Positions 649 to 33,579 of a stretch of 64,000 nt of DNA are shown here, piece after piece. This DNA is from Deltaproteobacteria bacterium (GTDB taxonomy: Bacteria; Myxococcota_A; UBA9160; UBA4427): positions 1-64,000 of the forward strand of contig JAJDAN010000031.1 of NCBI GenBank assembly GCA_029261855.1. Reading direction: 5' to 3'. Numbering within the stretch: position 1 is the stretch's first letter; the number at the start of each line of letters is the position of its first letter. The notes beneath the pieces are model-generated. The model saw only the letters and a program-made list of their open reading frames with translations, ran no database searches and had not been told where the DNA came from. The position numbers and the translations under genes were made by a program.

Positions 649-3600
649 TTAGAACGTGTATCTCAGGCGGGCCCACAGCTCATCGCGATCTCTCACGATC
701 GCCAACCCACCCTCACGGCCGCTCTTGTACAGCTCGTTGGGTCCGGCCGTACTCCGGTTGCCGGCCGGTGCGAGGCCCGCGATCGGCTCGTCGACGAAGT
801 CCGGCTTGCCGAAGAAGTACGCCATGCCGACCGCCGCCGAGAAGTTCTCCGTGAAGCGGTAGCTGATGCCCGTGAGCAGCGCGCCCGACTGGGTCTGCAC
901 GTCGTACACCGTCGTGATGCTGGGCGCGAGGCGGTCCTGGAAGTAGGCCGTCGCCACCGTGAAGGTACCCAGCAGGCTCCAGGGTCCCTCGGTGACCTGT
1001 CCCTTTTCCCAGCCCTCGCGGTAGCCCACGAACATCTGCAGGTTGAAGAAGAAGGTGCGATTGGCGTTCAGGAAGTTGATGAAGGTCGGGCGATCGACGG
1101 ACATGGTCAGGTTGAAGTCGTTGGCCGTCGAGAGGTCGTCGTACTGGTTTCGATTGACGACGTCGACGCCCTCGATCCAGGTGAACTCGAAGCTGAAGTT
1201 CGCCTTCGAGACGTCCTCGGCGAAGTCCATCGAGAATCCGAGGACATTGCGCTTGTTGTAGGTGAGGATCGCCTCGCCGCCGGATTGCCACGCGAAGGTG
1301 CGGCGACCGTGAGTGCCGTTGCCGCCGGCCTTGCGGACGTTGCGCTGGAGGCCAATGGTGCCCTGTAGCGTTCGGAACGTGTCGCACAGGGCCGGCTGAA
1401 CGAAGGAGCAGGCGTTCGGGTCGAGGAAGACCTCGCGGGCCTGCTCGTAGGGGGTGAGCGAGCAGAAGGGGTCGGCCGGGTTGGTGACGCAGTCGGCGAC
1501 CTTCTCGTCGTAGATGGCCTGTCCGTCCTGTTGCACCAGGAAGGCCACGAAGTTCCACGACAGGGCGGCCATCTCGCTCGAGAAGGGCTGACCGGTCATC
1601 GGATGCCCACCCCGACCGCACGGCACGAACTGCGCACCGCCGTACTCGGCGATCAGGGCGGCGGGGTAGCCGGCGGCGTCGCAGTTGTCGAAGGCGGTTC
1701 CGGCCGCCACATTCGGTTGACCCGAAGCCGGATTGCCGAAGACACCCGCCGGGCTCGCTGCGTTGAAGCCGTCGTAGAAGAAGTCCGGTGCGGAGGTCGG
1801 CGTGCCACCGATGTCCCGCGCCGGGGGAATCAGGTACTGCGGCACGGCGAGGCTCGTGAAGTAGTTGACGTTCTGCATGCTCAGGCCGTTGGGGCCGCCC
1901 GAACCGTTCGCGTCCGGGTCGCCGTCCTTGGCGAGGTCCCAGCTGCGCGGGTCGACGCGCGGGCTGTCGAAGTCGCCCAGGCCCGAGCAGCCCGGGGACA
2001 CGGTGCTGCCGCCGTTGGCCGCCCGCTCCCGCGCGCAGCTCAGATCCTGACCGTAGAGATTCAGCACGAGCAGCTGGCGCAGGGGGTCGTTGCCGACGCT
2101 GGGATCGTCCGGGTTGCGCTTCCACTTGCGCCGGCAGCCGGGCACGATGGCCTGGTTACCGTTGGCGTCGTCGTTCTCGAGGGCGTCGTCGGAGTACTCG
2201 AAGAGCGCGCCGCCGAAGTTGCCTGTGGTGCAGACCGCGCCGAGTTGGTGGCTGCGCGTCTCGTCGAAGTACCAGTCCCGGGTGCCCGGCTGGGCCGCGA
2301 AGATGGGCAGGCCGGTATTCGGGCTGTTCACCTTCTGGTTCGTGAACCAGGGGGTGAAGATGTTGCCGTTCTGGACGGTGCCTTCGACGCCCGGCCAGGA
2401 CTGGAAGATGGCGCTGCCCTCGGCCGTCAGGAGGTCGATGCCGTCGTCGTCGCACTGGGTCCCCCAGAACGGACCGCACCCAAGCAGCGCTTCCTGCTCG
2501 GGTGAGAGCGTGCCGCCGAGGGTCTGGGCGACGACGACCTCCCCGCCGACCGACACAGTGCCGAAGAGACCGAGCAGCCCTGCACCCTGGCCACCGCAGA
2601 AGCCGACGCCGGCCTGGGGCGAGACGCACGGGCTGGTCGAGCCGTTGGTGTTGGGGTTGCCCGGGCCAACGCCCGTTGTCTGGTCGAAATCGAGATCTCC
2701 CGGATCGACGTTGAGCCGCACCAGGGGGAATACGAAGCCGCCCGCCGCACCGGCAAGGCTCTGATTCACCAACGGAGAGCCCGCGAGCGACGCTCCGATG
2801 CCCTGGGAGATCCGGATCATCAGGGGATCCATCGGATCGAGTACCTCGGTGCTGCCGAAGATGTTCAGCGCGCACGCTGCGGTGTCCAGCGCCGAGAAGC
2901 CCACGGACGTCGCACAGGTATAGGCGAAGAGCTGCTGGGCAACGGCGGAGTTCGTCAGGCCTTCCAGCTCGCTGCCGAGATCCAGGAAACCGTCGCCGTC
3001 GCGGTCTTCGCCAGGATCGAGCACGCCGTTGCCGTTGTCGTCCTCGTAGACGTTGGCCGTGCTGATGCCGTTGTTGCCATCGATGTCGCGCTTGGGCAGC
3101 AGGCAGGCTTCTTCGAGACCCGTCACGCAGATGCCCTGGGTGCCGATCTGCTCGACGTTGTTCTCGGGGGCGCCCGTGTAGGGGTTCCCCGCGGGGCGCA
3201 GGGTCTCGAGGGTGCCGAAGATCTCGCGCGGCCGACCGGTCATCGGATCCACGTTCCGGGTGAAGGTCGAGATCTGCTTGATGGTCGGGATGTCCTCGTA
3301 GCCGTAGAAGTCCATCAAAGCGAAGCTGAAGCGGTCGTAACGCCACTCGATGCGGGCGCCGACCTCCCAGCCTTCCGTGCTCTGCCACGGGTCCTTGGGC
3401 GTCTCCTGCCCGGCGAGGCCGACGCCGAAGATGCTGTGGGCGAAGCCGCCGAAGGTCAGCTGACAGGTGATGTTGGGCGCGTAGGCTTCGCCGCAGGCGC
3501 CGATGTCGGTGCCCTGGTAGTCGTCGAAGTTGAAGGCCAGCTCGAGGCGCACGTCGTCGAAGGGTCCGACCTCGTAGAACGAGTAGACGCCGCGCACGGA

Positions 3601-4968
3601 CCACAGGGCGATGCGCGATTCTTCGAGGCTCGGCAGCGAAGCCAGACCGGCGTCGGTGGGATTGAACTGGTCGGTGGTCCGGAACAGCTCGGTCTTGCCC
3701 CACACGATCTGCTGGCGCCCGATCCGCAGCCACAGCCGGTTGTCGAGGGTCTCGATGTCGAGGTACGCCTCCTTCAGCTCCTTCTCGTCCTTCTGAGACG
3801 CGCCGCGGTTCCACTGGCGTTCGGCCTGACTGAAGTTGAAGTCGGCCTCTACGGGGTCGAGCCGGCCGTTGTCGAGCAGCTTCGAGAGCGGCGCCGTGGG
3901 CAGGAACATGCCGCGGGGGTCACCCGGGCTGTCGGCCTGGTCGACACCGGCGCCGTCTTCGCGGAACAGCGGAACCGGCCGGTAGGGAAGCTCTCCGGCG
4001 CCGACTGCGGCCTGGCCGGTGGCGGTCGCCGAAGCCAGCAACGCGTCGAAGGCGACGGGGTCGACGGGGGTGCCGTCGGGGTTGAAGGCCGGGTCCGCGG
4101 CAATCAGCGCGGAATTGTAGGCCGACGCCTGGACCGCGTACCCGCCGACGCGGTCGTCCCACGGATTCGGCGACGTCACCTGGGCGCCGTTGCCGACGAA
4201 CTTGTTCTTGGGAAGCCACGGCCCGAACCCCGCGCCGTTCGGAACGATGAACTCGAAGTCGAGGTAGCTGCCGTCCCGGGCGAGTGCCGCGTACGGGTCG
4301 TCGGTGTTCGGCCAGATGGATTGGACGTCGAAGGTGGTCGTGGTGCCGTCGCCGCCTGCCAGGTACGGGCACAGCCCGCCGAGATCGCAGGTTTCGCGCT
4401 GGTCGATGCCGTCGCCGCCGACGCCGTCCGCGAAGATCGCGAGAATCGGATCGTTGAGGGCGATCAGCGGGTCCCGGTTGGTGGGACTGCCGGGCACGAA
4501 GTTGCGGTACTGGTCGGGAAGTTCCGGGTCGTTGGCGATCCGGATACGACCCGATTGGCGCACGCGGTCGAGATTCAGCAGGCGCTTGGGCAGGCTCTTC
4601 GAGCGATCGCCGTAGGCGTTCATCGAGCGGAACATCCCGCAGCCGCGGGAATAGATGCAGTCGTACCGGACCTCGGCCCGGACGTATGCGGACATCAGGT
4701 CGATGGGGCCGACGGTGTCCTGCACGAGGTCCATCTCGACCTCGAGGTTGAAGATCATGTACCACTGCGACACGTCCCACTGTTCCGAGTAGTCCGCGTT
4801 GAGCGCGCGCACCTGACTCTCGAAGAAGCCGTGAGCCTGCAGGCGCCCATCGAACGCCTCGAAGGCCCTCGCGGCGGGGGCCGCCGCCAACGTGTGCAGC
4901 GTCAAGAGAACGAGCGCAAAGCCAAAGGCCCGCCCGACGTCCCAGCAAGAAGAACGTCCCCCAGTCAT
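649..4968 (-). CDS. Giant DUF1302-type outer-membrane beta-barrel protein
   Basis: This 1439-residue exported protein has a signal peptide of about 36 residues ending PAARA, amphipathic barrel strands, and a C-terminal LRYTF ending in Phe as expected for BAM-dependent insertion. Around residues 395-440 it carries the DUF1302 hallmark LWLRIGRQQIVWGKTELF followed by DQFNPTD. DUF1302 proteins are usually about 550-700 residues. Here roughly 600 residues, about 560-1190, are inserted between barrel strands, rich in Gly, Asn, Asp and Cys, with EF-hand-like acidic loops near 640-665 (DDNGNGVLDPGEDRDGDG). The start has a good ribosome site (GAGGGAGA), and a sigma-70-like promoter lies about 250 bases upstream. 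In related bacteria such proteins often sit near lipid or steroid catabolism genes; the transported substrate here is unknown. Confidence 0.8.
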   Translation of the reverse strand: MTGGRSSCWDVGRAFGFALVLLTLHTLAAAPAARAFEAFDGRLQAHGFFESQVRALNADYSEQWDVSQWYMIFNLEVEMDLVQDTVGPIDLMSAYVRAEVRYDCIYSRGCGMFRSMNAYGDRSKSLPKRLLNLDRVRQSGRIRIANDPELPDQYRNFVPGSPTNRDPLIALNDPILAIFADGVGGDGIDQRETCDLGGLCPYLAGGDGTTTTFDVQSIWPNTDDPYAALARDGSYLDFEFIVPNGAGFGPWLPKNKFVGNGAQVTSPNPWDDRVGGYAVQASAYNSALIAADPAFNPDGTPVDPVAFDALLASATATGQAAVGAGELPYRPVPLFREDGAGVDQADSPGDPRGMFLPTAPLSKLLDNGRLDPVEADFNFSQAERQWNRGASQKDEKELKEAYLDIETLDNRLWLRIGRQQIVWGKTELFRTTDQFNPTDAGLASLPSLEESRIALWSVRGVYSFYEVGPFDDVRLELAFNFDDYQGTDIGACGEAYAPNITCQLTFGGFAHSIFGVGLAGQETPKDPWQSTEGWEVGARIEWRYDRFSFALMDFYGYEDIPTIKQISTFTRNVDPMTGRPREIFGTLETLRPAGNPYTGAPENNVEQIGTQGICVTGLEEACLLPKRDIDGNNGISTANVYEDDNGNGVLDPGEDRDGDGFLDLGSELEGLTNSAVAQQLFAYTCATSVGFSALDTAACALNIFGSTEVLDPMDPLMIRISQGIGASLAGSPLVNQSLAGAAGGFVFPLVRLNVDPGDLDFDQTTGVGPGNPNTNGSTSPCVSPQAGVGFCGGQGAGLLGLFGTVSVGGEVVVAQTLGGTLSPEQEALLGCGPFWGTQCDDDGIDLLTAEGSAIFQSWPGVEGTVQNGNIFTPWFTNQKVNSPNTGLPIFAAQPGTRDWYFDETRSHQLGAVCTTGNFGGALFEYSDDALENDDANGNQAIVPGCRRKWKRNPDDPSVGNDPLRQLLVLNLYGQDLSCARERAANGGSTVSPGCSGLGDFDSPRVDPRSWDLAKDGDPDANGSGGPNGLSMQNVNYFTSLAVPQYLIPPARDIGGTPTSAPDFFYDGFNAASPAGVFGNPASGQPNVAAGTAFDNCDAAGYPAALIAEYGGAQFVPCGRGGHPMTGQPFSSEMAALSWNFVAFLVQQDGQAIYDEKVADCVTNPADPFCSLTPYEQAREVFLDPNACSFVQPALCDTFRTLQGTIGLQRNVRKAGGNGTHGRRTFAWQSGGEAILTYNKRNVLGFSMDFAEDVSKANFSFEFTWIEGVDVVNRNQYDDLSTANDFNLTMSVDRPTFINFLNANRTFFFNLQMFVGYREGWEKGQVTEGPWSLLGTFTVATAYFQDRLAPSITTVYDVQTQSGALLTGISYRFTENFSAAVGMAYFFGKPDFVDEPIAGLAPAGNRSTAGPNELYKSGREGGLAIVRDRDELWARLRYTF

Positions 4969-5454: not shown

Positions 5455-7629
5455 TCAGCCCCGCGCCCGGCAGTGCTCGGACCAACGCACCAGGGCGGCG
5501 AGCGCGCCCACCGCGCGGTGCGCGCTCGGGTAGCAGACGCGTCCGGCTTCGCGGACACCGCGAACGCCCGCGTTGTCCCGGTCCGCGAAGACGAGCTCGG
5601 TGGCCGACATCGCCGGCTTGCCGTGACGCTCGGATGCTTCCTTGGCAGCCAGCGCGTAGCGCGCGTCCTGCCGCGCGTGGAACTCTGCGATGCGCCCAAT
5701 GCCGTAGTCCGGGTGGAACGGGCCGGTCTCGAAGGCGCGCGCCTGGGCGGCCTGGATCCCGAGGCCCAGGTGCACCATGGCGTCGACGTCCGGGTGCCCG
5801 AGCACCAGCTCCATCACCTCGGGGATCGTGTCCCGGGTCTCGCCACCGGCCAGGTCGATGGGGTTGTTGCGACTCCAGCGCGCCGGGACCATCTCGTCGA
5901 TTCGCGCCTTGATGTCTTCCGGCAGCGGTATCAGTTCGAGGCCGTTCGCCGAGCAGGCGTCCGCCGCGAGCACACCCCATCCGCCTACGCTGGTGAAGAT
6001 GACCGTGCGGTTGCCTGCGGGAAGCGGCTGGGTGGCCAGGGTCGCCGCCCACTCGAACGCTTCCTCGACCGTCGGCGCGCGCAGGATGCCGAGCTGACGG
6101 CAGATCCCGTCGAACACGCGGTCGTCGCTCGCGAGCGCGCCCGTGTGACTCGCGGCTGCGCGCTTGCCTGCCTCGCCGACGCCGCCCTTCACCAGTACGA
6201 GAGGCTTGGACGCGGTCAGGCGCTCGGCGGCGCGACGGAAGGCGCGACCGTCGCCGATGCCCTCGACGTACACGAGCGCCACGTCCGTTTCCGGGTCGAC
6301 GGCAAAGTACTCGAGCATCTCTGCCAGACCCGTCTGGGCCGAGTTGCCGAGGGAAACGGCCTTGCTGACCCCGACCCCGGTGGCGACGGCGTAGTTGAGA
6401 TAGGAAGAGACCAGATTCCCGCTCTGGCTGGCCACGCCGATGCGGCCGGCCGGCGGGAACGGCGCCACGATCTGTGCGCACATGGAATCCGGGGTGGAGA
6501 TGACCCCCTGCCCGTTCGGCCCGATCAGCAGGATGCCGAGCTCGTTCGCGACTTCGACGATCTCGCGCTGGAGCGCCGGTCCGTTGCCGCCCGACTCGGC
6601 GTAGCCGGCGCTGGCCACGAACGCCGCGCGAACGCCCTTCTTTGCGCAATCGCGCAGGAGCTGGATGTTGACCTTGTTGGGCGTGCAGACGAAGACCAGG
6701 TCGGCCTGGTGGTCCGGGATGTCCTCGACTGACGGGAAGGTCTCCCGCCCGAGCACCTCGGCCCCGTCGGGCTTCACCGCAAAGAGCTTCCCCGCGTATC
6801 CGAAGCGCAGCAGGTTGTGCAGGGTCACGAAGCCGAACTTCCCCGGGTGGCCCGAAACTCCGGCGACGACGATGCCTTTGGGATGGAACAAGGGCCGGAA
6901 GCGCTCGAGCACCTCTTCGTCGCTTCGGGGCGCGGGTGTGGGCATGGCGGAAGTCGCCGAAGCCTCCTCGCCGCCCGCCAGCTCGACGAGCGCATCCACC
7001 GCGATCGGCTGGTCGCCCCGCAGGATCACCGGGTTCAGGTCGACGCTGGCGATGTCGGGACGCTCTTCCGCCAGGCGCGAGAGGCCGAGCAGTACGCGGA
7101 TGAGCGCGTCCTCGTCGACGGGTGGATCGCCGCGGAATGCGCGGGTCAAGAGATGGCTGGCGCGCAGACCGCGGATCATGCGACGGGCGTCTGCCTCGCG
7201 GAGCGGCGTGACACCGAACACCACGTCGCCCAGCGCCTCGGTCAGGATGCCTCCCAGGCCGAGCATCACGCAGGCGCCGAATTGCGGATCGCGCACCAGC
7301 CCCGCGATCAGCTCCCGGCGGCCCGACACCATCTCGGAAACCAGCACGCCCACATCGCCGTCTTCCGGGCGAACACCCGCCAGCAGCTCTGCCGCCGCGG
7401 CGCGCGCGGAGGCCTCGTCACCGATCCCGAGACGCACGCCGTCGCGCTCGGTCTTGTGCGCGATCGCCGCGCCGCACAGCTTGAGGGCGACGGGAAAACC
7501 GATCCGAGCCGCCGCCGCAGCGGCGGCGTCGGCATCGCGTGCCAGCTCTTCGCGCGTCACCGGGACGCCGAAATCGGCGAGCAGGGCCTTGGACTCGAAC
7601 TCGGACAGCGTCGGGGCGGATTCCTTCAT
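5455..7629 (-). CDS. NDP-forming acyl-CoA synthetase (acetate-CoA ligase family)
   Basis: This 724-residue cytosolic enzyme of the ADP-forming acyl-CoA synthetase family would interconvert an acyl-CoA and free acid with ATP/ADP and CoA. The N-terminal ATP-grasp domain (about 8-220) contains VALKLCG and an AHKTERDGV stretch. A CoA-binding Rossmann domain begins near 244 (GIVVAGVSGHPGKFG). The succinyl-CoA-ligase-like domain carries SQSGN and the phosphohistidine motif ASHTGALASDD with His near 493. The beta-then-alpha order of a fused single-chain enzyme is clear. It is divergent from the symporter gene with 143 bases between. The acyl substrate cannot be told from sequence. The start ATG begins the ATP-grasp domain directly. 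Confidence 0.85.
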   Translation of the reverse strand: MKESAPTLSEFESKALLADFGVPVTREELARDADAAAAAAARIGFPVALKLCGAAIAHKTERDGVRLGIGDEASARAAAAELLAGVRPEDGDVGVLVSEMVSGRRELIAGLVRDPQFGACVMLGLGGILTEALGDVVFGVTPLREADARRMIRGLRASHLLTRAFRGDPPVDEDALIRVLLGLSRLAEERPDIASVDLNPVILRGDQPIAVDALVELAGGEEASATSAMPTPAPRSDEEVLERFRPLFHPKGIVVAGVSGHPGKFGFVTLHNLLRFGYAGKLFAVKPDGAEVLGRETFPSVEDIPDHQADLVFVCTPNKVNIQLLRDCAKKGVRAAFVASAGYAESGGNGPALQREIVEVANELGILLIGPNGQGVISTPDSMCAQIVAPFPPAGRIGVASQSGNLVSSYLNYAVATGVGVSKAVSLGNSAQTGLAEMLEYFAVDPETDVALVYVEGIGDGRAFRRAAERLTASKPLVLVKGGVGEAGKRAAASHTGALASDDRVFDGICRQLGILRAPTVEEAFEWAATLATQPLPAGNRTVIFTSVGGWGVLAADACSANGLELIPLPEDIKARIDEMVPARWSRNNPIDLAGGETRDTIPEVMELVLGHPDVDAMVHLGLGIQAAQARAFETGPFHPDYGIGRIAEFHARQDARYALAAKEASERHGKPAMSATELVFADRDNAGVRGVREAGRVCYPSAHRAVGALAALVRWSEHCRARG

Positions 7630-7772
7630 GGGCGCGCGAGCTTAGCAGGGCACAGCTGCGCGGCCGATCTGCCGAAACGAAGACACACGGCCGAAGGACC
7701 GGAACGGGGGGCTATGCTCGCGCCTCCCGGATTCCCCCCTCCGGCAGCACTGGCGCCAGGAGGGAGTGCAGC

Positions 7773-9245
7773 ATGGAGCAGTCGGGATTCCTCGTCGCGC
7801 TCGAGTCCGTCTTCAAGGACTGGGTCGTCGCACCCGTGAACGCCGTCCTCTTCTTCGACGTCGTGTTCTGGGACAACGGCAGCGCGGGGGAGATCGAGCT
7901 CCCCATCGTCGTACTGTGGCTCGTGCTCGGCGCCCTCTTCTTCACGTTGCGCATGCAGTTCATCAACTTCCGCGGCTTCCGCCACGCCATCGACTGCGTC
8001 CGCGGCCGCTACACCGACCCCTCCGAAGTCGGAGAGATCACTCACTTCCAGGCGCTGTCCGCCGCCCTGTCGGCCACGGTAGGCCTCGGCAACATCGCCG
8101 GCGTCGCGTTCGCGGTGGGTGTCGGAGGGCCGGGAGCGGTCTTCTGGATGGTGGTCGCGGGCTTCCTCGGCATGAGCTCGAAGTTCGTCGAGTGCACCCT
8201 CGGGCAGAAGTACCGGGTCGTGCGCTCGGACGGTCATGTTTCCGGCGGACCGATGCACTACCTGCGAGACGGCCTGGCCGAGATCGGCTGGACGCGCACC
8301 GGCCGCGTGCTCGCCGTCGTCTTCGCGGGGATGTGCATTGGCGGCAGCTTCGGCGGCGGCAACATGTACCAGTCGAACCAGGCCTTCGCCCAGGTGGCGG
8401 CAACCTTCGGAGACAGCGCGCCCTGGCTTGCCAGCCAGGCGGGTGCGCTCGGCTTCGGACTGCTGATGGCCATCGCCGTCGGCGCCGTCATCATCGGCGG
8501 CATCAAGCGGATCGGCGAGGTCGCGTCGGTCCTGGTGCCCGTCATGTGCGTGACCTATGTCGGGTCAGGCCTGCTCATCCTCGTGCTGCACGCCTCGGCG
8601 GTTCCGGAGGCGGTGGGTGTGGTGGTGCGCGAGGCCTTCAGCTTCCAGGCCGGACTCGGCGGCTTCGTCGGCGTGCTGATCCAGGGCTTCCGACGCGCCG
8701 CTTTCAGCAACGAGGCCGGCGTCGGTTCGGCGGCCATCGCGCACTCGGCGGCGCGCACCGACGAACCCGTGCGGGAAGGGATGGTCGCCCTGCTCGAGCC
8801 CTTCATCGACACGATCATCGTCTGCGCCATGACCGGAGCCGTGATCGTGGTGACCGGCGCCTGGAACGACCCGAACGCCGGAACGGGCATCGAGATGACC
8901 AGTACTGCCTTCGCGACGGTGCTGCCGTGGTTCCCGGTCGTCCTCTCGGTGACCGCCGTCGCGTTCGCGTTCAGCACCATGATCTCCTGGAGCTACTACG
9001 GCGAGCAGTGCTGGGCGAGCCTCTTCGGGCTGCGATCGGTGCTGCTCTACAAGCTGATCTTCCTGCTCTTCACCTGGGCGGGCGCGGTCTTCGCCGCCGA
9101 CGCGGTCGTGGAGTTCGGCGACCTGATGATCCTGGGGATGGCCTTCCCGAACATCGCGGGCGTGCTGCTGTTGACCGGAAAGGTCAAGGCCGACCTGGAC
9201 GACTACCTCGCCCGCCTGCATCGGGGCGAGTTCCAGAAGCACTGA
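7773..9245 (+). CDS. Sodium:alanine/glycine symporter (AGCS family)
   Basis: This 490-residue inner-membrane carrier of the alanine-or-glycine:cation symporter family imports small neutral amino acids with sodium. Family marks include ALSATVGLGNIAGVAFAV, GPGAVFWM, KFVECTLGQKYR, GGPMHYL, and FRRAAFSNEAGVGSA near the middle, with about ten hydrophobic segments. ATG at 7773 is chosen because AGGAGGGAG lies just upstream; the frame is open further upstream but that part is not membrane-protein-like. It stands alone, divergent from the acyl-CoA ligase and convergent with the quinoprotein operon. Substrate preference within the family is not resolved. Confidence 0.92.
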   Translation: MEQSGFLVALESVFKDWVVAPVNAVLFFDVVFWDNGSAGEIELPIVVLWLVLGALFFTLRMQFINFRGFRHAIDCVRGRYTDPSEVGEITHFQALSAALSATVGLGNIAGVAFAVGVGGPGAVFWMVVAGFLGMSSKFVECTLGQKYRVVRSDGHVSGGPMHYLRDGLAEIGWTRTGRVLAVVFAGMCIGGSFGGGNMYQSNQAFAQVAATFGDSAPWLASQAGALGFGLLMAIAVGAVIIGGIKRIGEVASVLVPVMCVTYVGSGLLILVLHASAVPEAVGVVVREAFSFQAGLGGFVGVLIQGFRRAAFSNEAGVGSAAIAHSAARTDEPVREGMVALLEPFIDTIIVCAMTGAVIVVTGAWNDPNAGTGIEMTSTAFATVLPWFPVVLSVTAVAFAFSTMISWSYYGEQCWASLFGLRSVLLYKLIFLLFTWAGAVFAADAVVEFGDLMILGMAFPNIAGVLLLTGKVKADLDDYLARLHRGEFQKH

Positions 9246-9264: not shown

Positions 9265-11415
9265 TCAGTTGGCAGGCAGCCCGGCCAGGTACTGCTGGAT
9301 GTCGCGGGCCTCGTCTTCGGACAGCCACTGGCCGAAGCCCGGCATCGACGTACCCGCGAGACCGTTGATCACGACGGGCACGAAGGCGTCCCCCAACACG
9401 CGGGCACTCGCTCGCAGGTCCGGATTGACGCCAGCCGCGACCCCGTTCGCTCCGTGACAACGCCAGCACCAGTTGTGATAGAGGTCAGCCGAACGCGCGA
9501 GGGCCGGATCGCGATCGCCGAGCAGGGATTCCACCTGCCTCGGTGTGACGCTTTCGCTGACCAGCTTCCACGCGAGCACGCGGCCGTTCGATTCGACGCC
9601 GGCGGCAGCCGCAGCGTCGCCCCCGACCTGGGCAAAGGCACCGCCCCAGCCCGCCACGACGGAGACGTACTGCACCCCGTCGACGCGGTAGCTGATGGGC
9701 GCCGCGATGATGCCGGTACCCGCCGAGTGGCTCTGCCACAACAGCTGGCCGTCGTCCGCACGCAGGGCCAGGAAGCGGCCGTCCGCCGTCCCCTGAAAGA
9801 CGAGATTGCCCGCGGTGGTGAGCGTGCCGCCGTTCCACGGAAGGCCGTGGGGATGTCGCCAGGCCTCCTTCTGGGCAATCGGGTCCCAGGCCAGCAGGTG
9901 ACCCGCCACCGCCTCGCGCTGGAACAAGGTGCCGACCGTCGAATCCGTGCCCAGGTTGAACTCGCCTGGACGTGGCTCGTAGAGCGGGTCGCGCCGGTAG
10001 GGACCCGCCATCGCCTGGGCGGGGATGTAGACGAGGCCGGTCACCGGATTGAACGACATGGGGTGCCAGTTGTGGCCACCGAGGTACATCGGCGCGACGA
10101 GCGCGAGGCCGTTCTCGTAGTCCGCACTGCGCGATCGGATGGGGCGACCGGTCTTCGGGTCCACGCCCTTGGCCCAGGTCACGGGCACGTAGGGTTCGGC
10201 GGAGATGAACGCGCCCGTCTCCCGGTCCAGCATGTAGAAGAAGCCGTTCTTCGGAGCCTGCATGATCACCTTGCGCAACACCCCATCGATGGGCAGGTCG
10301 GCGAGGATCATGTGCTGGGTGGCGGTGAAGTCCCAGTTGTCGGCGGGGGTCGTCTGGTAGTGCCACTCGATCTCGCCGGTGTCCGGGTCGAGGGCGAGGA
10401 TCGAGGACAGGAAGAGGTTGTCACCGCCGCCGGGGCTGCGCAGCTCGGCGCGCCACGGCGACCCGTTGCCCGTACCGACGTACAGCATGCGGAGCTTCGG
10501 GTCGTAGGCCATGGAATCCCACGCCGTACCGCCACCCCCCAGCTTCCAGTACTCGCCGTTCCAGGTCTTCGCCGCGTCTGCCATCGCCTGGGACTCGAAG
10601 GGCTGGCTGGGGTCGCCGGGCACCGTGTAGGTGCGCCAGAGCATGTCGCCCGTCTCGGCGTCGTATGCCGAGACATAGCCGCGCACTCCGAACTCGGCGC
10701 CGCCGTTTCCAATGATCACCCTGCCCTCGTACACCCGCGGCGCACCCGTGATCGTGTACGGCTGGCTGGGGTCGACGGTCAGCGTTTCCCACTTCTTCTC
10801 GCCGGTCGCGGCGTCGATGGCGATCAGGCGGCCGTCGAGAGCACCGAGGAACAGGCTGTCCCCGTGGATCGCGACGCCGCGATTCACGACGTCGCAGCAG
10901 GTCTTGCGCCCGACCTCCTGTGAGACCTGCGGATCGTACTTCCAGATCAGCTCGCCGGTCGCAGCGTCGAGAGCGAAGACCACGCTCCACGATCCGGTGG
11001 TGAAGAGCACGCCGTCCACCACCAGCGATGTCGCCTCGTGTCCCCGGCGCAGCCCCGTGTCGAAGGCCCAGGCCAGTCGCAGCCGATCGACGTTCTTGGC
11101 GTGGACCTGTGTGAGCGGCGAGAAGCGCTGCTCGGACCAGGTCCGACCGTGAGTCAGCCAGTTGTCCGGATCCGCCGCGGCGGTGCTCAGCCGGGTATCG
11201 TCGACCGACACGCGAACGCGTCGCTTGCGGACCCGGGGCGTGGCGGGCTCGGCCGACGGCGGCGCCACGGGCCCCGGCTGCACCGCGGGTGCCGAGGACT
11301 CGACGGCCAGCGTCGCGTCCTCGTCCCCACCGCAAGCGACCCAACCCAGCGGCGCCAGCAGCGTCAGCAGGATTCCCCGGACCAGCGTGTCCCGGAGAAG
11401 CCCGGTACGGATCAC
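9265..11415 (-). CDS. PQQ-dependent alcohol dehydrogenase with C-terminal cytochrome c (quinohemoprotein)
   Basis: A 716-residue periplasmic quinohemoprotein that oxidises an alcohol or related compound and passes electrons from PQQ to its own heme. It starts at GTG 11415, overlapping the upstream stop as GTGA, with a lipoprotein-like leader ending GWVAC (the Trp at -3 is atypical). An eight-bladed propeller follows, with tryptophan-docking blade repeats such as LDPDTGEIEWHY. It has a vicinal Cys-Cys near residue 174 (KTCCDV), TPADNWDF, and GGHNWHPMSFNP, all characteristic of the family. The last 80 residues hold one heme site CWRCH near 650 and an axial Met in TSMPGFG. It is the last gene of a three-gene operon with two other c-type cytochromes. 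No PQQ biosynthesis gene is visible. Confidence 0.88.
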   Translation of the reverse strand: MIRTGLLRDTLVRGILLTLLAPLGWVACGGDEDATLAVESSAPAVQPGPVAPPSAEPATPRVRKRRVRVSVDDTRLSTAAADPDNWLTHGRTWSEQRFSPLTQVHAKNVDRLRLAWAFDTGLRRGHEATSLVVDGVLFTTGSWSVVFALDAATGELIWKYDPQVSQEVGRKTCCDVVNRGVAIHGDSLFLGALDGRLIAIDAATGEKKWETLTVDPSQPYTITGAPRVYEGRVIIGNGGAEFGVRGYVSAYDAETGDMLWRTYTVPGDPSQPFESQAMADAAKTWNGEYWKLGGGGTAWDSMAYDPKLRMLYVGTGNGSPWRAELRSPGGGDNLFLSSILALDPDTGEIEWHYQTTPADNWDFTATQHMILADLPIDGVLRKVIMQAPKNGFFYMLDRETGAFISAEPYVPVTWAKGVDPKTGRPIRSRSADYENGLALVAPMYLGGHNWHPMSFNPVTGLVYIPAQAMAGPYRRDPLYEPRPGEFNLGTDSTVGTLFQREAVAGHLLAWDPIAQKEAWRHPHGLPWNGGTLTTAGNLVFQGTADGRFLALRADDGQLLWQSHSAGTGIIAAPISYRVDGVQYVSVVAGWGGAFAQVGGDAAAAAGVESNGRVLAWKLVSESVTPRQVESLLGDRDPALARSADLYHNWCWRCHGANGVAAGVNPDLRASARVLGDAFVPVVINGLAGTSMPGFGQWLSEDEARDIQQYLAGLPAN

Positions 11416-12218
11416 TTGACGCTGATCACGATCGGGGCAGTGAACCTCACGCGGCCCGACTTGCCGCCGTAGCCACCCAGGGGCTGCTTTCCGTAGACCG
11501 GGTGCTCGGTCGAGCCGAGCTTCGTCGCCTTCTCGGTACCGTAGAGATAGGCGCCAACCAGCGGATAGTCGCCGACGCGGTCCGGCGCCTGCAGGGTGTA
11601 GATGACCTTCGACTTGGACCACCTGCCGGCGACTGCGTCCGACGCAACGCCGGTGATGTTCACGTAGGTGATCTTGCGGCCCATGCGCGCGGGACGCCGG
11701 TCGAGCCATTCCGTCTGGGGCTTGCCGTCGGGACCGATCACCGTCGGCGGGCCCACCACGCTCCAGCCCGTGGACGACGCGGGGCGTGCGTACCAGCGAT
11801 GGGCGCGGTCGACGAGACCGACTGCCACCACGGGCCCGGCTCCGCCCGTCACGATGACCGTCACATTGAAAGTTTCACCGGGCTTGACCTGGGGCGGGAA
11901 ATCGACGAGCTCGATCTTGGAGTTGAGGTCGACGGCCTGGAGCTGCTGCGCGAGCGCCGCCCGGTCGGCTTCCGAGAGCTTGTCATAGGGCTGCTGTCCC
12001 TGGACGATCGAGGCGAGATGCTTGTTCGCCGCGAGCTCCTTCTCCGCACGCGGCCCCGCGCCTTCGAGCGCCTCGACGGTCACCGACGAGTGACAGGCAG
12101 CGCAGAAAGGCGCGACGTCCGTCTGGAAGTCCGGCGTGCCGCCGGGGTATGCGTTCACTGCGGCGGGTGCCGCCACCATCGTTGCGACGGCGATCCATGC
12201 CAAGCCGCGTCGTGTCAT
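11412..12218 (-). CDS. Exported monoheme protein with Ig-like domain
   Basis: A 268-residue protein with a signal peptide ending VNAYPGG and a single heme motif CAACH near residue 40, in an N-terminal segment that looks like a small cytochrome (DVAPFCAACHSS). The rest is beta-rich: VKPGETFNVTVIVTGG, then a WYARPASSTGWSV region and a C-terminal strand series ending IVISVK. It does not match a named enzyme I know. Placed between the pentaheme membrane cytochrome and the quinoprotein, with the downstream start overlapping its stop, it probably relays electrons or docks one of the partners. The role is inferred from position only. Confidence 0.7.
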   Translation of the reverse strand: MTRRGLAWIAVATMVAAPAAVNAYPGGTPDFQTDVAPFCAACHSSVTVEALEGAGPRAEKELAANKHLASIVQGQQPYDKLSEADRAALAQQLQAVDLNSKIELVDFPPQVKPGETFNVTVIVTGGAGPVVAVGLVDRAHRWYARPASSTGWSVVGPPTVIGPDGKPQTEWLDRRPARMGRKITYVNITGVASDAVAGRWSKSKVIYTLQAPDRVGDYPLVGAYLYGTEKATKLGSTEHPVYGKQPLGGYGGKSGRVRFTAPIVISVK

Positions 12219-12278
12219 GCTTCCCTCCTGGTTCCAGCTCTACCGGTGCGAGTTGCCGGTAGGAGTCCATCGGTACGG

Positions 12279-12905
12279 TCACTCGAATTCCGTGTGGCAC
12301 TGCGCACAACGTCCCCTCACGTGCGCCGGCTGCAGATAGTACAGCTCTTCGAGGCCACCGGGCGCGTGGGACAGGTGGCATTCCACGCACGACATCCCGA
12401 GCGCCACGTTGTGGACCGGCAGCGCGTGGAAGGGAGGCGACGGCTCCGCCGCACCCGCCTCCGCCTCGCTGAAGCCCGCGTGGCACTGGCGACAGTCCTC
12501 GTCGAGCAGCGGCCACGCCATCTCCGTGGGCTCTTTGAAGTGTCCGACCAGCCACCAGAATCCGTCCTTGGCGGCTAGCACCTTGGTGCGCGCCTTGCCC
12601 ACGAAGCCCACGCCTCCGTGGCAGTCGATGCAGCGAAAGGCAGACGCCGGGCCCGGCCGGCTCGGATGTGTCGAAGCGGCATGCAGCGCCGCCAGGCTGG
12701 CGGTCGGGCGTGCGTCGAAATCCCGCCGGATGTCCTCGTGCAGCGGGACACCCGGCTCCAGGTGGCAGGCATTGCAGAAGTCGTTGTCCTGCTCGAGGTG
12801 GTCGCTACCGAACCAGCCCACGGGCGCGGCGACGCATCCAGCCATCGCTGCAAGGACGATCCACCGCGTTCGCCGTGCCACTCTCACGCGGCGCGAGTCT
12901 CGCAT
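12279..12905 (-). CDS. Membrane-anchored pentaheme cytochrome c (NapC/NirT-like)
   Basis: A 208-residue protein with one N-terminal membrane anchor (TRWIVLAAMAGCVAAPVGWF) and five CXXCH heme sites: CNACH, CIDCH, CRQCH, CVECH and CAQCH. This resembles NapC/NirT/NrfH quinol-linked cytochromes, which have four or five hemes and move electrons between the quinone pool and periplasmic proteins. I use ATG 12905, which has GAGGG just upstream and leads straight into the basic, then hydrophobic, anchor. First gene of the cytochrome-quinoprotein operon; 60 bases separate it from the next gene. Divergent from the flavin oxidoreductase at 12967, so the 61-base gap must hold both promoters. Confidence 0.8.
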   Translation of the reverse strand: MRDSRRVRVARRTRWIVLAAMAGCVAAPVGWFGSDHLEQDNDFCNACHLEPGVPLHEDIRRDFDARPTASLAALHAASTHPSRPGPASAFRCIDCHGGVGFVGKARTKVLAAKDGFWWLVGHFKEPTEMAWPLLDEDCRQCHAGFSEAEAGAAEPSPPFHALPVHNVALGMSCVECHLSHAPGGLEELYYLQPAHVRGRCAQCHTEFE

Positions 12906-12966: not shown

Positions 12967-13848
12967 ATGAGCACCGAAATCGGTCGACTCGGAGTCTGGT
13001 GCTGGCTCGACGCCTACACGGCGCCGGAGGCAGCGGCCTTCGCCCGCCAGATCGAAGCCTGGGGCTACTCCGCGCTCTGGATTCCCGAAGCGGTCGGCCG
13101 CGATCCCTTCTCCTTCATCTCGTACCTGAGCGCCGAGACCGAGAAGCTGGTACTCGCCACCGGCATCGCGAACATCTACGCCCGAGACGCGATGACCTTG
13201 AAGGCCATCCACAAGACGATCTCGGAGCTGGCCCCCGGCCGCTTCGTGATGGGGCTCGGCGTCTCCCACGAGCACCTCGTCTCGAAGGTCCGCGGCCACG
13301 ACTACAAGAAGCCGCTGACGACCATGCGCAACCACCTCGACGCACTCGACAGCGCCCTCTACATGGGCGCCAACCCCAAGGAAGACGCACCGATCGTGCT
13401 CGCCGCCCTGCGCGACCGGATGCTCGGGCTGGCGGCCGAGCGGACCCACGGCGCTCACCCCTACTTCGTGCCGCCCGAGCACACCGCGCACGCCCGGGAA
13501 GTCATGGGTCCCGACGCCTGGCTGTGCCCGGAGCAGATGGTGCTGCGCGAGACCGACCCCACCAAGGCGCGCCAGGTCGCGCGAGCGAACATGCAGGTCT
13601 ACGTCGGCCTCCCCAACTACCAGAACAACCTGCGCCAGTTCGGGTACGGCGACGCCGACTTCGCCGACGGCGGCAGCGACAGGCTGGTCGACGCGATCGT
13701 CGCCTGGGGCGACGAGCAGGCCATCGCCAGCCGCATCCAGGCACACCGCGACGCCGGAGCCAACCACGTCTGCATCCAACCGTTCAAAGCCGACGGAACC
13801 CCAGGCCCCGACCTCAACCTCCTCGAAGCCCTCGCCCCTACCCCCTAG
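12967..13848 (+). CDS. LLM-class F420-dependent oxidoreductase
   Basis: A 293-residue luciferase-like monooxygenase-fold protein. The start GRLGVWCW, the EAWGYSALWIPEA strand, the VLATGIANIY segment and RFVMGLGVSH match the TIGR03620-type probable F420-dependent oxidoreductases known from mycobacteria and uncultured lineages. The cofactor is presumed F420 or FMN; no F420 synthesis gene is in the window. ATG 12967 follows GAGGAGAG. It is followed by a 270-base gap with a large inverted repeat rather than by a partner gene, so its substrate stays open. Confidence 0.82.
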   Translation: MSTEIGRLGVWCWLDAYTAPEAAAFARQIEAWGYSALWIPEAVGRDPFSFISYLSAETEKLVLATGIANIYARDAMTLKAIHKTISELAPGRFVMGLGVSHEHLVSKVRGHDYKKPLTTMRNHLDALDSALYMGANPKEDAPIVLAALRDRMLGLAAERTHGAHPYFVPPEHTAHAREVMGPDAWLCPEQMVLRETDPTKARQVARANMQVYVGLPNYQNNLRQFGYGDADFADGGSDRLVDAIVAWGDEQAIASRIQAHRDAGANHVCIQPFKADGTPGPDLNLLEALAPTP

Positions 13849-14119: not shown

Positions 14120-15346
14120 ATGGCCCTCATCAACGAAAACTACCGGAAGCTCCAAGCTGGCTATCTGTTCCCCGAGATCGGGCGGCGCGTGCGCGCCTTC
14201 ACGGCAGAGAACGCCGGCGCCAATGTGATCCGCCTGGGAATCGGCGACGTCACCCTGCCCCTCGTGCCTGCAGTGGTCCAGGCCATGCACGACGCGGTCG
14301 ACGATCAGGCGAAGAAGGCCTTCGGGTACGGGCCGGAGCGTGGCTACGACTTCCTCGTCGAGGCGATCCGACAGGGAGATTTCGCCCCGCGAGGGGTCGA
14401 CATCGCAGCCGACGAGATCTTCGTTTCCGATGGCAGCAAGCAGGACAGCGGAAACATCCAGGAAGTGTTCGGCACCGATTGCAGCGTGTTGGTGACCGAC
14501 CCGAGCTATCCCGTCTACGTCGACACGAATGTGATGGCCGGGCGCACGGGCAACTGCGACGAGCGGGGCATGTACGCCGGGATCCACTACCTCGCGGCCA
14601 CCGAAGCCAACGGCTTCATGCCCGAGCCGCCGGCCGAGCGGGTCGACCTCGCCTATCTCTGTTCACCCAACAACCCGACCGGTGCGGTGGCGACCCGGGC
14701 AAACCTCAGCGCGTGGGTCGCCTGGGCACGCGCCAACGACGCGATCCTGCTCTTCGACGCGGCCTACGACGCCTTCATCCAGGACCCCGCCCTGCCCCGG
14801 TCGATCTACGAGATCGAGGGTGCCAAGGAGTGCGCCATCGAGATGCGCAGCTTCTCGAAGCGTGCGGGCTTCACGGGGGTCCGCTGCGCCTACACCGTCA
14901 TCCCGAAGGCGCTGCACGGCCGAACGAAGCAGGGGGAGAAGGTCTCCATCAACGACCTGTGGGCACGGCGACAAGGCACCAAGTTCAACGAGGTCCCCTA
15001 CGTCGTGCAGCGCGCCGCGGCCGCGGTCTTCTCCGCCGAGGGCGCGACCCAGACCGGCGAGCAGGTCGCCTACTACATGGAGAACGCCCGGCGGGTCCGG
15101 GACGGACTGGGCTCGGCCCACTTCACCGTCTTCGGAGGAGAGCACGCTCCCTACATCTGGCTGCGAACACCCGAGGGAGTCAGCTCCTGGGACTTCTTCG
15201 ACCAGCTCCTGCAGCGAACCCACGTCGTCGGCACCCCGGGCTCCGGCTTCGGACCGGCGGGGGAAGGCTACTTCCGGATCTCCGCCTTCAACTCCCACGA
15301 GAACGTCGACGAAGCGATCGAGAGAATCCGCAAGGCGTTCGCCTAG
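14120..15346 (+). CDS. dapL: LL-diaminopimelate aminotransferase
   Basis: A 408-residue PLP enzyme of the DapL type, converting tetrahydrodipicolinate to LL-diaminopimelate in one step for lysine and peptidoglycan synthesis. Family marks are [16 protein letters not shown] at the start, [46 protein letters not shown], and the PLP lysine in [12 protein letters not shown] near 248. Length matches DapL (about 410). It is first in a run with the exported FkbM-like gene (two bases later) and the hybrid kinase. DapL occurs in plants, Chlamydia, cyanobacteria and some deltaproteobacterial groups and replaces the DapD/C/E route. Confidence 0.95.
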
Positions 15347-27277: not shown

Positions 27278-30200
27278 TCAGCTCGACTCGGCGACCGCCT
27301 CGTCTTCGGACACCGGCACGCCGTCACGGTAGGTCACGCGCCGGGTTCGCACCGCCGGAACGCGCGGGCCGTCGGTCAGGATGCCGACCAGGTTCAGGGG
27401 GTCGAGGGCCGACAGCCGCACGACCTCGCCCGTTCGCTCGCGCCGTCGCACGCTGCGCAGCGCCGACACTGCTTCGGGCAGGGCGTACTGCTCGCCGACG
27501 AAGCCGGAAACGAAACGACCGCCGCGGATCACCCCGCGCGCCTCGAGCCGCCGCAGGGCCCAGAGGATCTCGCGCCACGGCAGGGCCAGGTTCTCCCGGG
27601 CGAGCACGTCGTAGAAGACCACGCCCCAGCGCGCGAGCAGCTGCTCGGCGAGCGCCTCGGCCAGCTCGTCGGAATCGCCGGCCCCGGGCAGTCGGTCCTG
27701 GGGGAAGAGCGACCAACGGCCCTCGGCCCCGGCGCCCGGCGCGCCGCCGATGCCCCGTCGCAGGCCGCGGCGCGCGCGCCGCCGCACTCGCGTACGGGCC
27801 CAGCGCTCGCGCGCGCCCAGCAGGGAGCGAACCGCCTGGAAGCCATCCGCCGTCACCAGCCCCCGGGCCACCAGGTCCCACAGGCCTTCCTCGACCTCCA
27901 CAGGCAGACGCTCGAGCCCGGCGACGAGGTCCGAATGGAAGAGCGCGCCGCGTTCGCGCAGCTGGTGGAGCACCTCGGAAGCCGCCCCCGGCCCGGGCTC
28001 GCCACCGGCGCCTTCGCCGCGGTGCACCTCGAGCAGCCAGGGAAGGTCGCTTCGCAAGCAGAAGGCGATGGGCGTGGCGCGGGACGGCGCCGCCCCGCTG
28101 CGCTTGGGCAAGGGCTCGTCCGCTTCCTGTGCTTCGTTTCGGGCTTCGTTTCGCGCTTGCTCCTTCTGGTCCTGGCTCCGCGCCGAGAGGCGCCCCCACA
28201 CTACGTCGCCGGACAGACAGAGTGCGTCGAGTGAGCGCGGCCGATAGCCCTCGACGCGAGCGGGCAGCACGCTCTCCTCCCAGGCGCCGGCGCCCAGCTC
28301 GAAGCCTTGCAGCTGCTCCACCGCAGCGAGGACGCCCTTCCGACCCTCGAGTCGCGTGTCCGGCACCACGTGCTGCCAGCGCAGCAGGAAGCGCATGTAG
28401 TCCTGGGCGGTGACCGGCTCGATTTCCCGCCGCAGCCGGTCCTGGGTGTAGCCATGCACGCGCGCCAGCAGGCGACGCGCGCAGAACTCGTCCTCCTCTG
28501 TCCCGGGTGCGGTACCGGGTGCGGTACCGGGTGCGGCATCGGGGTTCGAGAAGCGACCGCGCAACGCGAAGCCTTCCGCTTCGAGCCCGGCCAGGGCGAT
28601 CTCGAGCACGTCCGGCGCGAGGCCCGTACGATCGGCGAGGAACGTCACACCCACAGGCCCCGTAGAGTCCAGGTGACCCCGCAGCAGCTCGAGGGCCGCC
28701 CGATCCGGACTCACCTCGTCGAGCGCCAGACCGGCGTCGCTCGGGCGCAGCGCAGCGCCCGGAAACAGCGCTTCTACGGCGCGGCGACGCTCACTCGCGA
28801 ACCACAGTCGACCCGCGCCGGCGGGCCGGTCCAGCCAGCCCACGCGCCTGCCCTCCACGAGCGCTTCCAGCCAGGCGTCGACCGAACCCCGCAATTCCGC
28901 GACGAATGCGTCCAGTCCCAGCACGACGTGCTGCTGCAAGACGTCGTGCAGCTCGTCGGCGTCCCGCGGCGCCGGCCTCGTCTCTTCGCGTACCCGCTCG
29001 ATCGCCTCGGGGTCGAGACGTCCCAGCTCGCGCGCCTGGACGGGAAGCCCGCGCCGGAGCTGGACCGCCCGGGTACGCCGCTCCTCGAGCGGCGCGTCGT
29101 CGAGGAAGGTGTACGGCCTGCCGCTCAGGATCTCGTGCGCCATGGGCGACGGCTCGGTGGTGTCGACGAAGTGGACATCGATCGTCTTCGACTCGATACC
29201 CGCCACCAGCTCCTGCAGCCGGTCGGCATCCATGGCTTCCGTCAGGCAGTCGTGCAGCGTCTGCCGCACCAGCGGGTGATCGGGGATCTCGATGGGACCC
29301 GCTGCGTTCTCCTGGCACTGCACCAGCCCCGGGAAGACCGCGGCCATCAGGTCGTCGGCCTCCATCCGCTGAATCGGCGGCGGGTTCTTTCGGCCCCCTC
29401 GGAAGCGCAGCACCGCCAGCGAACGATTGAGGTTCCAGCGCCAGCGCGCGGCGAACATGGGCGACTGGATGGCCGCCTTGCGCAGTGTGTCGTGTACCTG
29501 CGCGGACTTCAGGAAGTGCGCTGCGCTCTCGAGCGGGAAGCTGTGCTGCGGGCCGAGCGAGAGCACCACGGCGTCGTCGTTGGCCGCAGCCTGCAGCTCG
29601 AAGTCGAAGCTCGCGCAGAACTTCTTGCGCAACCCCAACCCGAGACCGCGATTGATGCGCCCGCCGTAGGGCGAGTGGACGACGAGCTGCATGCCGCCCG
29701 ACTCGTCGAAGAAGCGCTCGAACACCAGCCGCCCCTGGGTCGGCAACGCCCCCAGCGCCACCCGCGACGCGTCGAGGTACGCGACGATCTGGAGCGCAGC
29801 CTCGGCCGGCACCTGGCATTCGTCCTGCAGCCAGCTCCGCGCCGAGTCGCCGTGCACCGCCTCGGGATCGGCTTTCTCGAGTCGCTTCGAGACCTCCTCG
29901 CGCAGGGACGACACCTCGGCGGACAGCTCTTCCGTGCGCGCCGGCGCCTCACCCAGCCAGAAGGGAATCGTCGACGGCGCGCCCCCGGCGTCGACCACGC
30001 GGACCACGCCGGGCTCGACCCGCCGGATCTTCCACGACGTGCTGCCGAGCAGGAAGATGTCCCCCACCATCGACTCGATGGCGAAGTCCTCGCCGATCGT
30101 GCCCACGTAGGTATCGTCGTTGCCGGCGACCACGCGATAGTCGGCGGTCTCGGGGATGGCGCCGCCAGACGTGATGGCCGCGAGCCGTGCGCCGCGACGC

Positions 30201-31852: not shown

Positions 31853-31963
31853 CGTGACGGCCGAAGCTAGCAGAGCGGGGGATCTTCCCCGATCCTCGGG
31901 CTCCCCCTGCTGACACGATCTGGCACCAGACGGCTGCGCCACCCCAGACAGGAGACAAGGCTC

Positions 31964-32674
31964 TTGGAGATCGTCCTGATACGCCACGCCCAGCCGGACT
32001 GGGAGCCCGGCGGCCGCGCCGTCGACGATCCCAGTCTGACGCCCCTGGGCCGCGAACAGGCCAAGCGGGCCGCCGAATACCTCTCGGGAACGCGCTTCGA
32101 CGCGTTCTACACGAGCCCTCTGCTGCGGGTTCGCGAGACCGCCGCACCCATCGCCGAGGCGCTCGGCATGCAGCCCGAAGTGCATTCGTGGCTGCACGAG
32201 CTGAAGCTGCCGTCGATGGAAGGCTTTACGTCGCAGCAGGTGCAGGCCTTCTTCCGCGAGGCCAACGCCCGTCACATCGACAAGTGGTGGGACGGCATGC
32301 CCGGCGGAGAGAGCTTCCGGCACTTCTACGAACGCGTGAGCGCCGGCATCGAAGGCCTGCTGCAGGGCGACCACGCTCTCGGCATGCACGAGGTCTCGGG
32401 ACACCGGCTGTGGCAGGTGCCGGAATCCAAGCGGATCCTGATCGTCGCCCACGAGGGCACCAACGCCGTGCTCGTCTCGCACCTGCTGGGCATCGACCCG
32501 GTGCCCTTCGCCTGGGTTCGTTTCTCGACCGCGTGGGCGGGCATCTCCGTGCTGCACACCCTCGATGTCGCCGGGGGGCGCGTCTTCAGCGTCGAGTCTT
32601 TCAACCGCACGGGTCACCTGGAGCCGCTGCAGAACCGCTCGGACTGGAAGCGCGACGGGCGCGTCCAGTCTTGA
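31964..32674 (+). CDS. Histidine phosphatase family protein
   Basis: A 236-residue protein of the phosphoglycerate-mutase-like (histidine phosphatase) superfamily. The phospho-His motif is LIRHAQPDW at the very start, followed by LTPLGREQAKRAAEYL, FYTSPLLRVRETA, and the second catalytic His in ILIVAHEGTNAVL. The start codon is TTG 31964, with AGGAGA about 10 bases upstream; any later start would remove the catalytic motif. It overlaps the next gene by TTGA, suggesting coupling with the BtuF-like protein; in cobalamin pathways the CobC phosphatase has this fold, so a corrinoid link is possible but unproven. Confidence 0.85.
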   Translation: MEIVLIRHAQPDWEPGGRAVDDPSLTPLGREQAKRAAEYLSGTRFDAFYTSPLLRVRETAAPIAEALGMQPEVHSWLHELKLPSMEGFTSQQVQAFFREANARHIDKWWDGMPGGESFRHFYERVSAGIEGLLQGDHALGMHEVSGHRLWQVPESKRILIVAHEGTNAVLVSHLLGIDPVPFAWVRFSTAWAGISVLHTLDVAGGRVFSVESFNRTGHLEPLQNRSDWKRDGRVQS

Positions 32675-33579
32675 CCCGGGTCGTCTCGCTGCTGCCGTCC
32701 GCGACTGAGATCGTGTTCGCGCTCGGCTGCGGGGACCAGCTGGTCGGACGCTCCCACGAATGCGACTACCCCGAAGCCGCGCGCGCCCTGCCCGTCTGCA
32801 CGCGCGCCAGCTTCCCGGACGGCACCAGCCGCGAGATCGACGACCAGGTGACCTCGCGGGTCCAGCAGGGCCTGTCCCTCTACGACGTCGACCTCGAGCA
32901 GCTGCGTACGCTGGCGCCGGACCTCGTGTTGACCCAGGACCAGTGCCGCGTCTGCGCCGTGCACCTGTCCGACCTCGAGGCCGCGCTCCGGGAATGGACC
33001 GGCGCGAGCGTCGAGATCGTCTCGCTGTCGCCGGCAGTCCTGGGCGACGTGCTGCGGGACATCGGGCGCGTGGGCGCCGCGCTCGGCGCGTCGACCGCCG
33101 CGCAGGCACTCGTGACCCGCCTGACCGAGCGCGTGTCGGAGATCGGCGAGAAGACCGGAGACGCGAAGCGCCCGAGCGTGGTCTGCCTCGAGTGGGTCGA
33201 CCCCTTGATGGCGGCGGGCAACTGGATCCCGGAGCTGGTGGCCGTTGCGGGGGGGCGCGCGCTGCTGGCATCCACCGGAAATCACTCCCCCGCCATCGAC
33301 TGGCCCGCCCTCCGCGCCGCCGACCCGGACTTCCTGATCGTCACGGCATGCGGCTTCGATCTTTCGCGCAGCCAGAGCGAGATGGGTCCGCTACTCGCCC
33401 ATCCGGACTGGCCAGCCCTGCGAGCCGTGCGAGCGGGCCGCGTGTTCGTCACGGACGGAAACGCCTATTTCAACCGCTCGGGACCACGCCTGGTCGAATC
33501 CATCGAGATCCTCGCCGAGATCCTGCACCCGGACCGTTGCGATTTCGGGCACGAGGGCAGCGGCTTCACGCGTGTCTAG
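32671..33579 (+). CDS. BtuF-like substrate-binding fold protein without signal peptide
   Basis: A 302-residue member of the periplasmic-binding-protein type 3 family (BtuF/FhuD fold). It opens TRVVSLLPSATEIVFALG and has GRSHECDYP, LVLTQDQCRVCAVHL, LEWVDPLMAAGNWIPEL and a C-terminal FVTDGNAYFNRSGP. There is no signal peptide or lipobox, and no ABC transporter permease or ATPase adjoins it. Soluble versions annotated as cobalamin-binding proteins exist in several phyla. The TTG start at 32671 overlaps the stop of the phosphatase gene. A cytosolic corrinoid or metal-chelate binding role is inferred. Confidence 0.75.
   Translation: MTRVVSLLPSATEIVFALGCGDQLVGRSHECDYPEAARALPVCTRASFPDGTSREIDDQVTSRVQQGLSLYDVDLEQLRTLAPDLVLTQDQCRVCAVHLSDLEAALREWTGASVEIVSLSPAVLGDVLRDIGRVGAALGASTAAQALVTRLTERVSEIGEKTGDAKRPSVVCLEWVDPLMAAGNWIPELVAVAGGRALLASTGNHSPAIDWPALRAADPDFLIVTACGFDLSRSQSEMGPLLAHPDWPALRAVRAGRVFVTDGNAYFNRSGPRLVESIEILAEILHPDRCDFGHEGSGFTRV

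Follow-up and report, generated by a model that had tools for sequence, protein, structure and literature searches.

The stretch analyzed here (the window) is 64,000 nucleotides of contig JAJDAN010000031.1 (C31) from the Deltaproteobacteria bacterium assembly GCA_029261855.1, a genome of 6.96 Mb in 91 contigs with 98.6% completeness. Three adjacent genes on its minus strand, in the order P1, P2, and P3, encode heme proteins. P1 (12279 to 12905, with an ATG start at 12905 and a stop at 12279; 208 residues) specifies a predicted membrane-anchored pentaheme cytochrome c, with four NrfH/NapC-like hemes followed by a fifth. P2 (11412 to 12218; 268 residues) specifies an exported monoheme protein of an unnamed family with a C-terminal immunoglobulin (Ig)-like beta-sandwich, and P3 (9265 to 11415) a pyrroloquinoline quinone (PQQ)-dependent quinohemoprotein alcohol dehydrogenase, type II-like, with a calcium-type site. 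The mechanically called open reading frame (ORF) of P3 spans 9265 to 11709, and comparison with the family places the start at a GTG (11415), giving 716 residues; the stop of P2 thereby overlaps the start of P3 by the 4 nucleotides GTGA (11412 to 11415, minus strand). P1 and P2 lie 60 nucleotides apart, with a GGAGG stretch preceding P2. An earlier note on this DNA had described three adjacent, overlapping genes with seven hemes: the adjacency, the P2/P3 overlap, and the count of CXXCH motifs (5 + 1 + 1 = 7) hold, whereas P1 and P2 do not overlap. Its descriptions of P1 as a NapC-like anchor and of P2 as a novel-looking exported Ig-like monoheme protein agree with the family and structure results given below. 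The three genes may be co-transcribed.

We started with the relationship of P1 to known quinol dehydrogenases. All five of its CXXCH motifs were kept in 35/35 homologues (row L108 left out), and five histidines outside these motifs (56, 75, 160, 165, and 180) as well as D114 were invariant in the same set. The five extra histidines fit five bis-His hemes, a pairing that we infer from the alignment. P1 scored 27.2 bits against PF03264 (NapC/NirT; gathering cutoff, 24.1), with the match covering only profile positions 67 to 165 of 174, and 21/22 P1 homologues matched the same family at an E value of 0.01. Scores were below the curated cutoffs for both the NrfH model TIGR03153 (32.7 versus 134.2 bits) and the NapC/NirT model TIGR02161 (12.8 versus 310.6 bits, far below). 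In the structure model, which has a mean predicted local distance difference test (pLDDT) score of 76, a helix occupies residues 2 to 39. The closest, though weak, fold match was NrfH, which was the sole Foldseek match (2vr0_F, E value of 0.38) and ranked first by VIA-align (Z 4.9, root mean square deviation [rmsd] of 7.2 Å, 131 aligned residues), followed by NrfB (Z 3.7, rmsd of 4.6, 109 aligned residues).

We then aligned 13 of the 35 P1 sequences with 12 NrfH sequences from the phylum, the latter taken from 35 phylum genomes with a match over the cutoff. Like NrfH, the quinol dehydrogenase of cytochrome c nitrite reductase, P1 has an N-terminal helix and can be aligned over hemes 1 to 4, but it carries five hemes, and CXXCHxM at heme 1 was found in 0/35 P1 sequences compared to CXXCHIM or CXXCHVM in 12/12 of the aligned NrfH. 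One account of NrfH (PMC8840924) assigns CXXCHxM to binding of the menaquinol-side heme. Since this motif is missing from all 35 P1 sequences, an NrfH-like quinol site in P1 is only putative. The gene surroundings differ as well: a five-CXXCH ORF adjoins NrfH in 12/12 NrfH loci, while the neighbor of P1 is P2, with no NrfA. On the curated cutoffs and the heme-1 motif, the assignment of P1 as NrfH or NapC proper was rejected; a separate true NrfH (159 bits) is encoded elsewhere in the window genome. Two pentaheme proteins offer further comparisons. NrfB, characterized in PMC12285233 as having five bis-His c hemes and supplying a periplasmic partner, resembles P1, for which feeding of a periplasmic partner would be the equivalent role. 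TorC appears in PMC11727998 as a pentahemic membrane link; unlike members of the TorC/NapC family, P1 is partnered with P2 rather than with a molybdenum reductase. Eight loci (L183, L184, L185, L186, L187, L188, L189, and L190) carry a stand-alone second P1-like pentaheme gene, 39 to 52% identical and not adjacent to P2, and no neighbor was common to these eight loci.

The single CXXCH of P2 was conserved in 58/58 homologues (rows L094, L116, and L137 left out); C39, C42, H43, R141, G227, and E229 were invariant in this set, and H67 was kept in 57/58. With this degree of conservation, the heme motifs of P1 and P2 are not chance occurrences. The window P2 has a predicted N-terminal signal or helix and no match to a Pfam family, and a P2 profile run against PDB sequences returned nothing convincing. 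Its structure model is confident (pLDDT 92), and residues 95 to 268 matched Ig-like domains, the best being a pilin (Z 9.8, 2.9 Å, 127 aligned residues). Foldseek returned generic Ig-like folds only, i.e., pilins, adhesins, and macroglobulins, and such model-based matches would indicate fold, not function. A distant relationship emerged with the choice-of-anchor V family (NF041895). The window P2 scored 19.5 bits against this model, below the cutoff of 42, yet 29/29 P2 homologues matched it weakly (E value of 0.1 or better), and hhalign gave a probability of 90 between the P2 family and nine true choice-of-anchor V members. Both have a heme-type motif after the signal peptide and then a beta-sandwich, but P2 differs by an extra helical stretch, containing H67, between the heme and the Ig domain. 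The window genome (G000) also has a true choice-of-anchor V gene (contig C11, 177785 to 178318), and a cytochrome b gene (176551 to 177078) lies within 1 kb of it on the opposite strand (L210 and L219).

P3 belongs to a well-described family. It scored 660 bits against TIGR03075 (curated cutoff, 480.05) and 36 bits against the cytochrome c family PF13442 (cutoff, 27) at residues 637 to 709, the C-terminal domain that holds its single CXXCH (CWRCH). The best PDB match was 1kv9 (730 bits), and alignment with the type II quinohemoprotein alcohol dehydrogenases 1kv9, 1yiq, and 1kb0 extended over the full length of P3, which shares their PQQ propeller and C-terminal cytochrome c domain. The segments TCCDVVNRG, with its vicinal cysteine pair, and NWDFTATQ aligned with the same three structures. 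At the catalytic aspartate, P3 reads WDFTATQ, as in 1kv9, compared to WDFDG in 6zcw, which we take to be of the lanthanide type, with the second aspartate as its mark; the roles of the P3 site residues are likewise presumed. A comparison of calcium and lanthanide ligands had been proposed in the earlier note, and this alignment places P3 in the calcium type. A lanthanide-type dehydrogenase was rejected, as the second aspartate two residues past the catalytic one is absent, and P3 is, by sequence, a conventional calcium-type type II quinohemoprotein alcohol dehydrogenase. It departs from the type II enzymes in a long proline-rich N-terminal stretch and in the adjacency of its gene to P2 and P1. 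A lipobox-like motif was present near the N terminus in 7/13 P2-adjacent P3 rows; the window P3 has a cysteine at the lipobox place without matching the searched pattern. P3 is one of five proteins over the TIGR03075 cutoff in the window genome, the other four genes of this PQQ alcohol dehydrogenase family being on contigs C28, C33, C4, and C48.

To follow the three genes across the order, we surveyed 60 relatives, including the window genome, and mapped by tblastn the neighborhoods of 31 P2 sites (that of the window and 30 fetched ones). P2 was present in 30/60 relatives, in a usual gene order of acyl-CoA synthetase, AGCS symporter, optional P3, P2, P1, luciferase-like monooxygenase (LLM), and aminotransferase. 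P1 was adjacent to P2 at 22 of the 31 sites, decayed at 1, lost to a contig end at 1, and absent at 7. P1 (at least 200 bits) was found in 25/60 genomes, 24 of which also had P2 (Fisher test, 7e-10, with relatedness ignored). The decayed case (L108:1850-2223, on the same contig as L059, in G042) consists of a P1 remnant before an intact P2, with the heme motif lost and no full frame. In a UBA9160 bin (L103:2058-3218), a moaA-like radical SAM frame, identified by eye, lies on the opposite strand between P1 and P2.

P3 followed a different pattern. It adjoined P2 at 7/31 sites, and P3-like genes (E value of 1e-60) occurred in 49/60 genomes and were absent from 4 of the 30 P2 genomes. P2 was found in 26/49 genomes with a P3-like gene and in 4/11 without (P = 0.51), i.e., no association, relatedness again being ignored. 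The three-gene chain of the earlier note is thus upheld for the co-conserved P1-P2 pair and not for P3. As a whole, it is partly supported and was over-read: the pair is the core of interest, and P3 is optional. P3 could be a mere neighbor that reduces an ordinary cytochrome c or a cupredoxin, in a slot with dehydrogenase turnover, while P1 and P2 work separately. Besides the low adjacency and the lack of association, P3 fills the slot without P1-P2 in G006, G050, and probably G031. A phylogenetic analysis of 16 slot P3s and 23 others (one long row excluded) rejected a single clade of slot P3s (approximately unbiased test, P = 0.00017), and well-supported branches force at least 5 changes of the slot label, so that dehydrogenase genes appear to have entered, left, or been replaced several times. 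The label is nonetheless clustered on the tree (6 changes versus a shuffled mean of 12.6), with P2-adjacent slot P3s coming from more than one sublineage, and where P2 and P3 co-occur their gaps are mostly tight (-4, -1, 11, and 37 nucleotides), features less expected of a chance neighbor. The sister species G001, with P3 at the end of one contig and P2 at the start of another, probably has all three genes. In seven P2-P3 slots without P3, the ORFs carried no CXXCH, so no other redox partner was seen there. Taken together, we tentatively prefer a model in which P2 accepts electrons from P1 and also from P3, in genomes that have it there, at somewhat below even chances, and a P3 that is only a neighbor is nearly as likely.

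The P2 family extends well beyond the order. A scan of genome contigs yielded 60 loci, partly on the same contigs as the order survey (the L103 contig, for instance, is that of G048), with record titles from Myxococcota, Deltaproteobacteria, Proteobacteria, and other bacterial bins, as well as Eisenbacteria (2), Nitrospirae/Nitrospirales (4), Nitrospinota (1), Binataceae (1), and Anammoxibacter (1). The family is thus also represented in Binatota, Nitrospirota, Nitrospinota, Eisenbacteria, and Planctomycetes records. A five-heme P1 adjoined P2 in 34/60 loci (L103, with its intervening moaA-like frame, counted among them), often with a 4-nucleotide overlap, and distant pairs were found in both Eisenbacteria records and one Nitrospirae record (L115, L124, and L129). 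P3 was beside P2 in 9/60 loci. Sites of P2 without P1 imply some role of P2 that is independent of P1, and P2 might be not a carrier but a small sensor or redox enzyme located beyond the inner membrane, to which P1, where present, donates electrons. Its wide and, outside the order, mostly solitary occurrence would suit such a role, as would the many invariant residues away from the heme (R141, G227, and E229 among them), whose number seems high for a carrier. On the other hand, H67, if it is a heme ligand, would close the heme, and no known enzyme relative was found in the PDB sequence or Foldseek searches; we therefore regard an enzyme or sensor as quite unlikely, compared to the carrier role considered next.

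The genome as a whole bears on the direction of electron flow. The earlier note had reported no PQQ synthesis or oxidase genes close by, which is locally true, but such genes exist elsewhere: contig C88 encodes PqqB (316 versus 245 bits), PqqC (285 versus 240), whose tail weakly resembles PqqD (28.9 versus 46), and PqqE (474 versus 381), and four COX1-family genes lie outside the locus. MenD is present (479 versus 244 bits), and no match to the futalosine-route family was found in the genome (ubiquinone genes were not searched for), which makes menaquinone the likely quinone. By general redox potentials, a PQQ/heme dehydrogenase is poorly served by menaquinone as an acceptor: transfer from PQQ or heme c to menaquinone would be uphill, whereas menaquinol to P1 to P2 would be downhill. 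These points disfavor the route suggested in the earlier note, in which P3 oxidizes alcohol and electrons flow through P2 and P1 in reverse into the quinone pool. The gene order and the seven hemes in a row are in keeping with that route, but P1-P2 also occurs without any P3-like gene in G005, G036, and G053, and we consider it possible but improbable.

Given the PQQ synthesis genes elsewhere in the genome and the presence of MenD, we favor flow from menaquinol through P1 to P2, with P3 feeding P2. P1 and P2 would form a two-protein electron-transfer module, in which the N-terminal helix of P1 sits in the inner membrane and menaquinol electrons pass along its five bis-His hemes to P2. P2 would be an exported one-heme carrier that its Ig-like domain holds to its partners. 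P3, encoded in the same run in this genome, would also reduce P2, where quinol and alcohol electrons would meet before passing to a further acceptor, probably an oxidase. It is conceivable, though we hold this a little less firmly than the shared-acceptor role of P2, that P1-P2 is an undescribed quinol-to-periplasm module, made of a pentaheme, all-His branch of NrfH/NapC and a new Ig-domain monoheme family represented in records of six phyla, and that PQQ dehydrogenases have been recruited to this module more than once. A literature search of titles and abstract starts on quinohemoprotein, NapC/NrfH, choice-of-anchor V, and Myxococcota topics did not name the P1-P2 pair.

Several observations weigh against this interpretation. 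Structural support for P1 is weak (pLDDT 76 and a best Z of 4.9 at an rmsd of 7.2 Å), and P1 lacks CXXCHxM at heme 1. P2 stands without P1 at 7/31 sites in the order and is solitary in most distant loci, P1 paralogues are solitary in several genomes, and the association of P3 is patchy (7/31 P2 sites). Two cytochrome b genes in the genome offer other ways for electrons to leave the quinol pool, and a role of P1 as the sole exit was rejected on these grounds. If the interpretation is true, a five-heme branch would be added to the NrfH/NapC quinol dehydrogenases, a widespread heme family without a Pfam match would gain its first partner and a testable role, and a shared cytochrome would be seen to link an alcohol dehydrogenase with a quinol-driven pathway. 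Should P3 be only a neighbor, the P1-P2 pair alone would stay of interest, on a smaller scale.

The remaining genes of the conserved neighborhood were assigned by Pfam family and synteny. The LLM gene (12967 to 13848, plus strand; PF00296) diverges from P1 across 61 nucleotides and is followed by a class I/II aminotransferase (14120 to 15346, plus strand; PF00155). On the other side, a sodium:alanine symporter of the AGCS family (7539 to 9245, plus strand; PF01235), whose ORF extends upstream past the likely true start, converges with P3, and an acyl-CoA synthetase of the NDP-forming type occupies 5455 to 7629 (minus strand; PF13549 and PF13607). A 1,439-residue ORF with a DUF1302 match (649 to 4968) adjoins this conserved block and has relatives in L035 and L173. 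Further along the window, 27278 to 33271 holds a very long ORF of 1,997 residues encoding an Lhr-type helicase.

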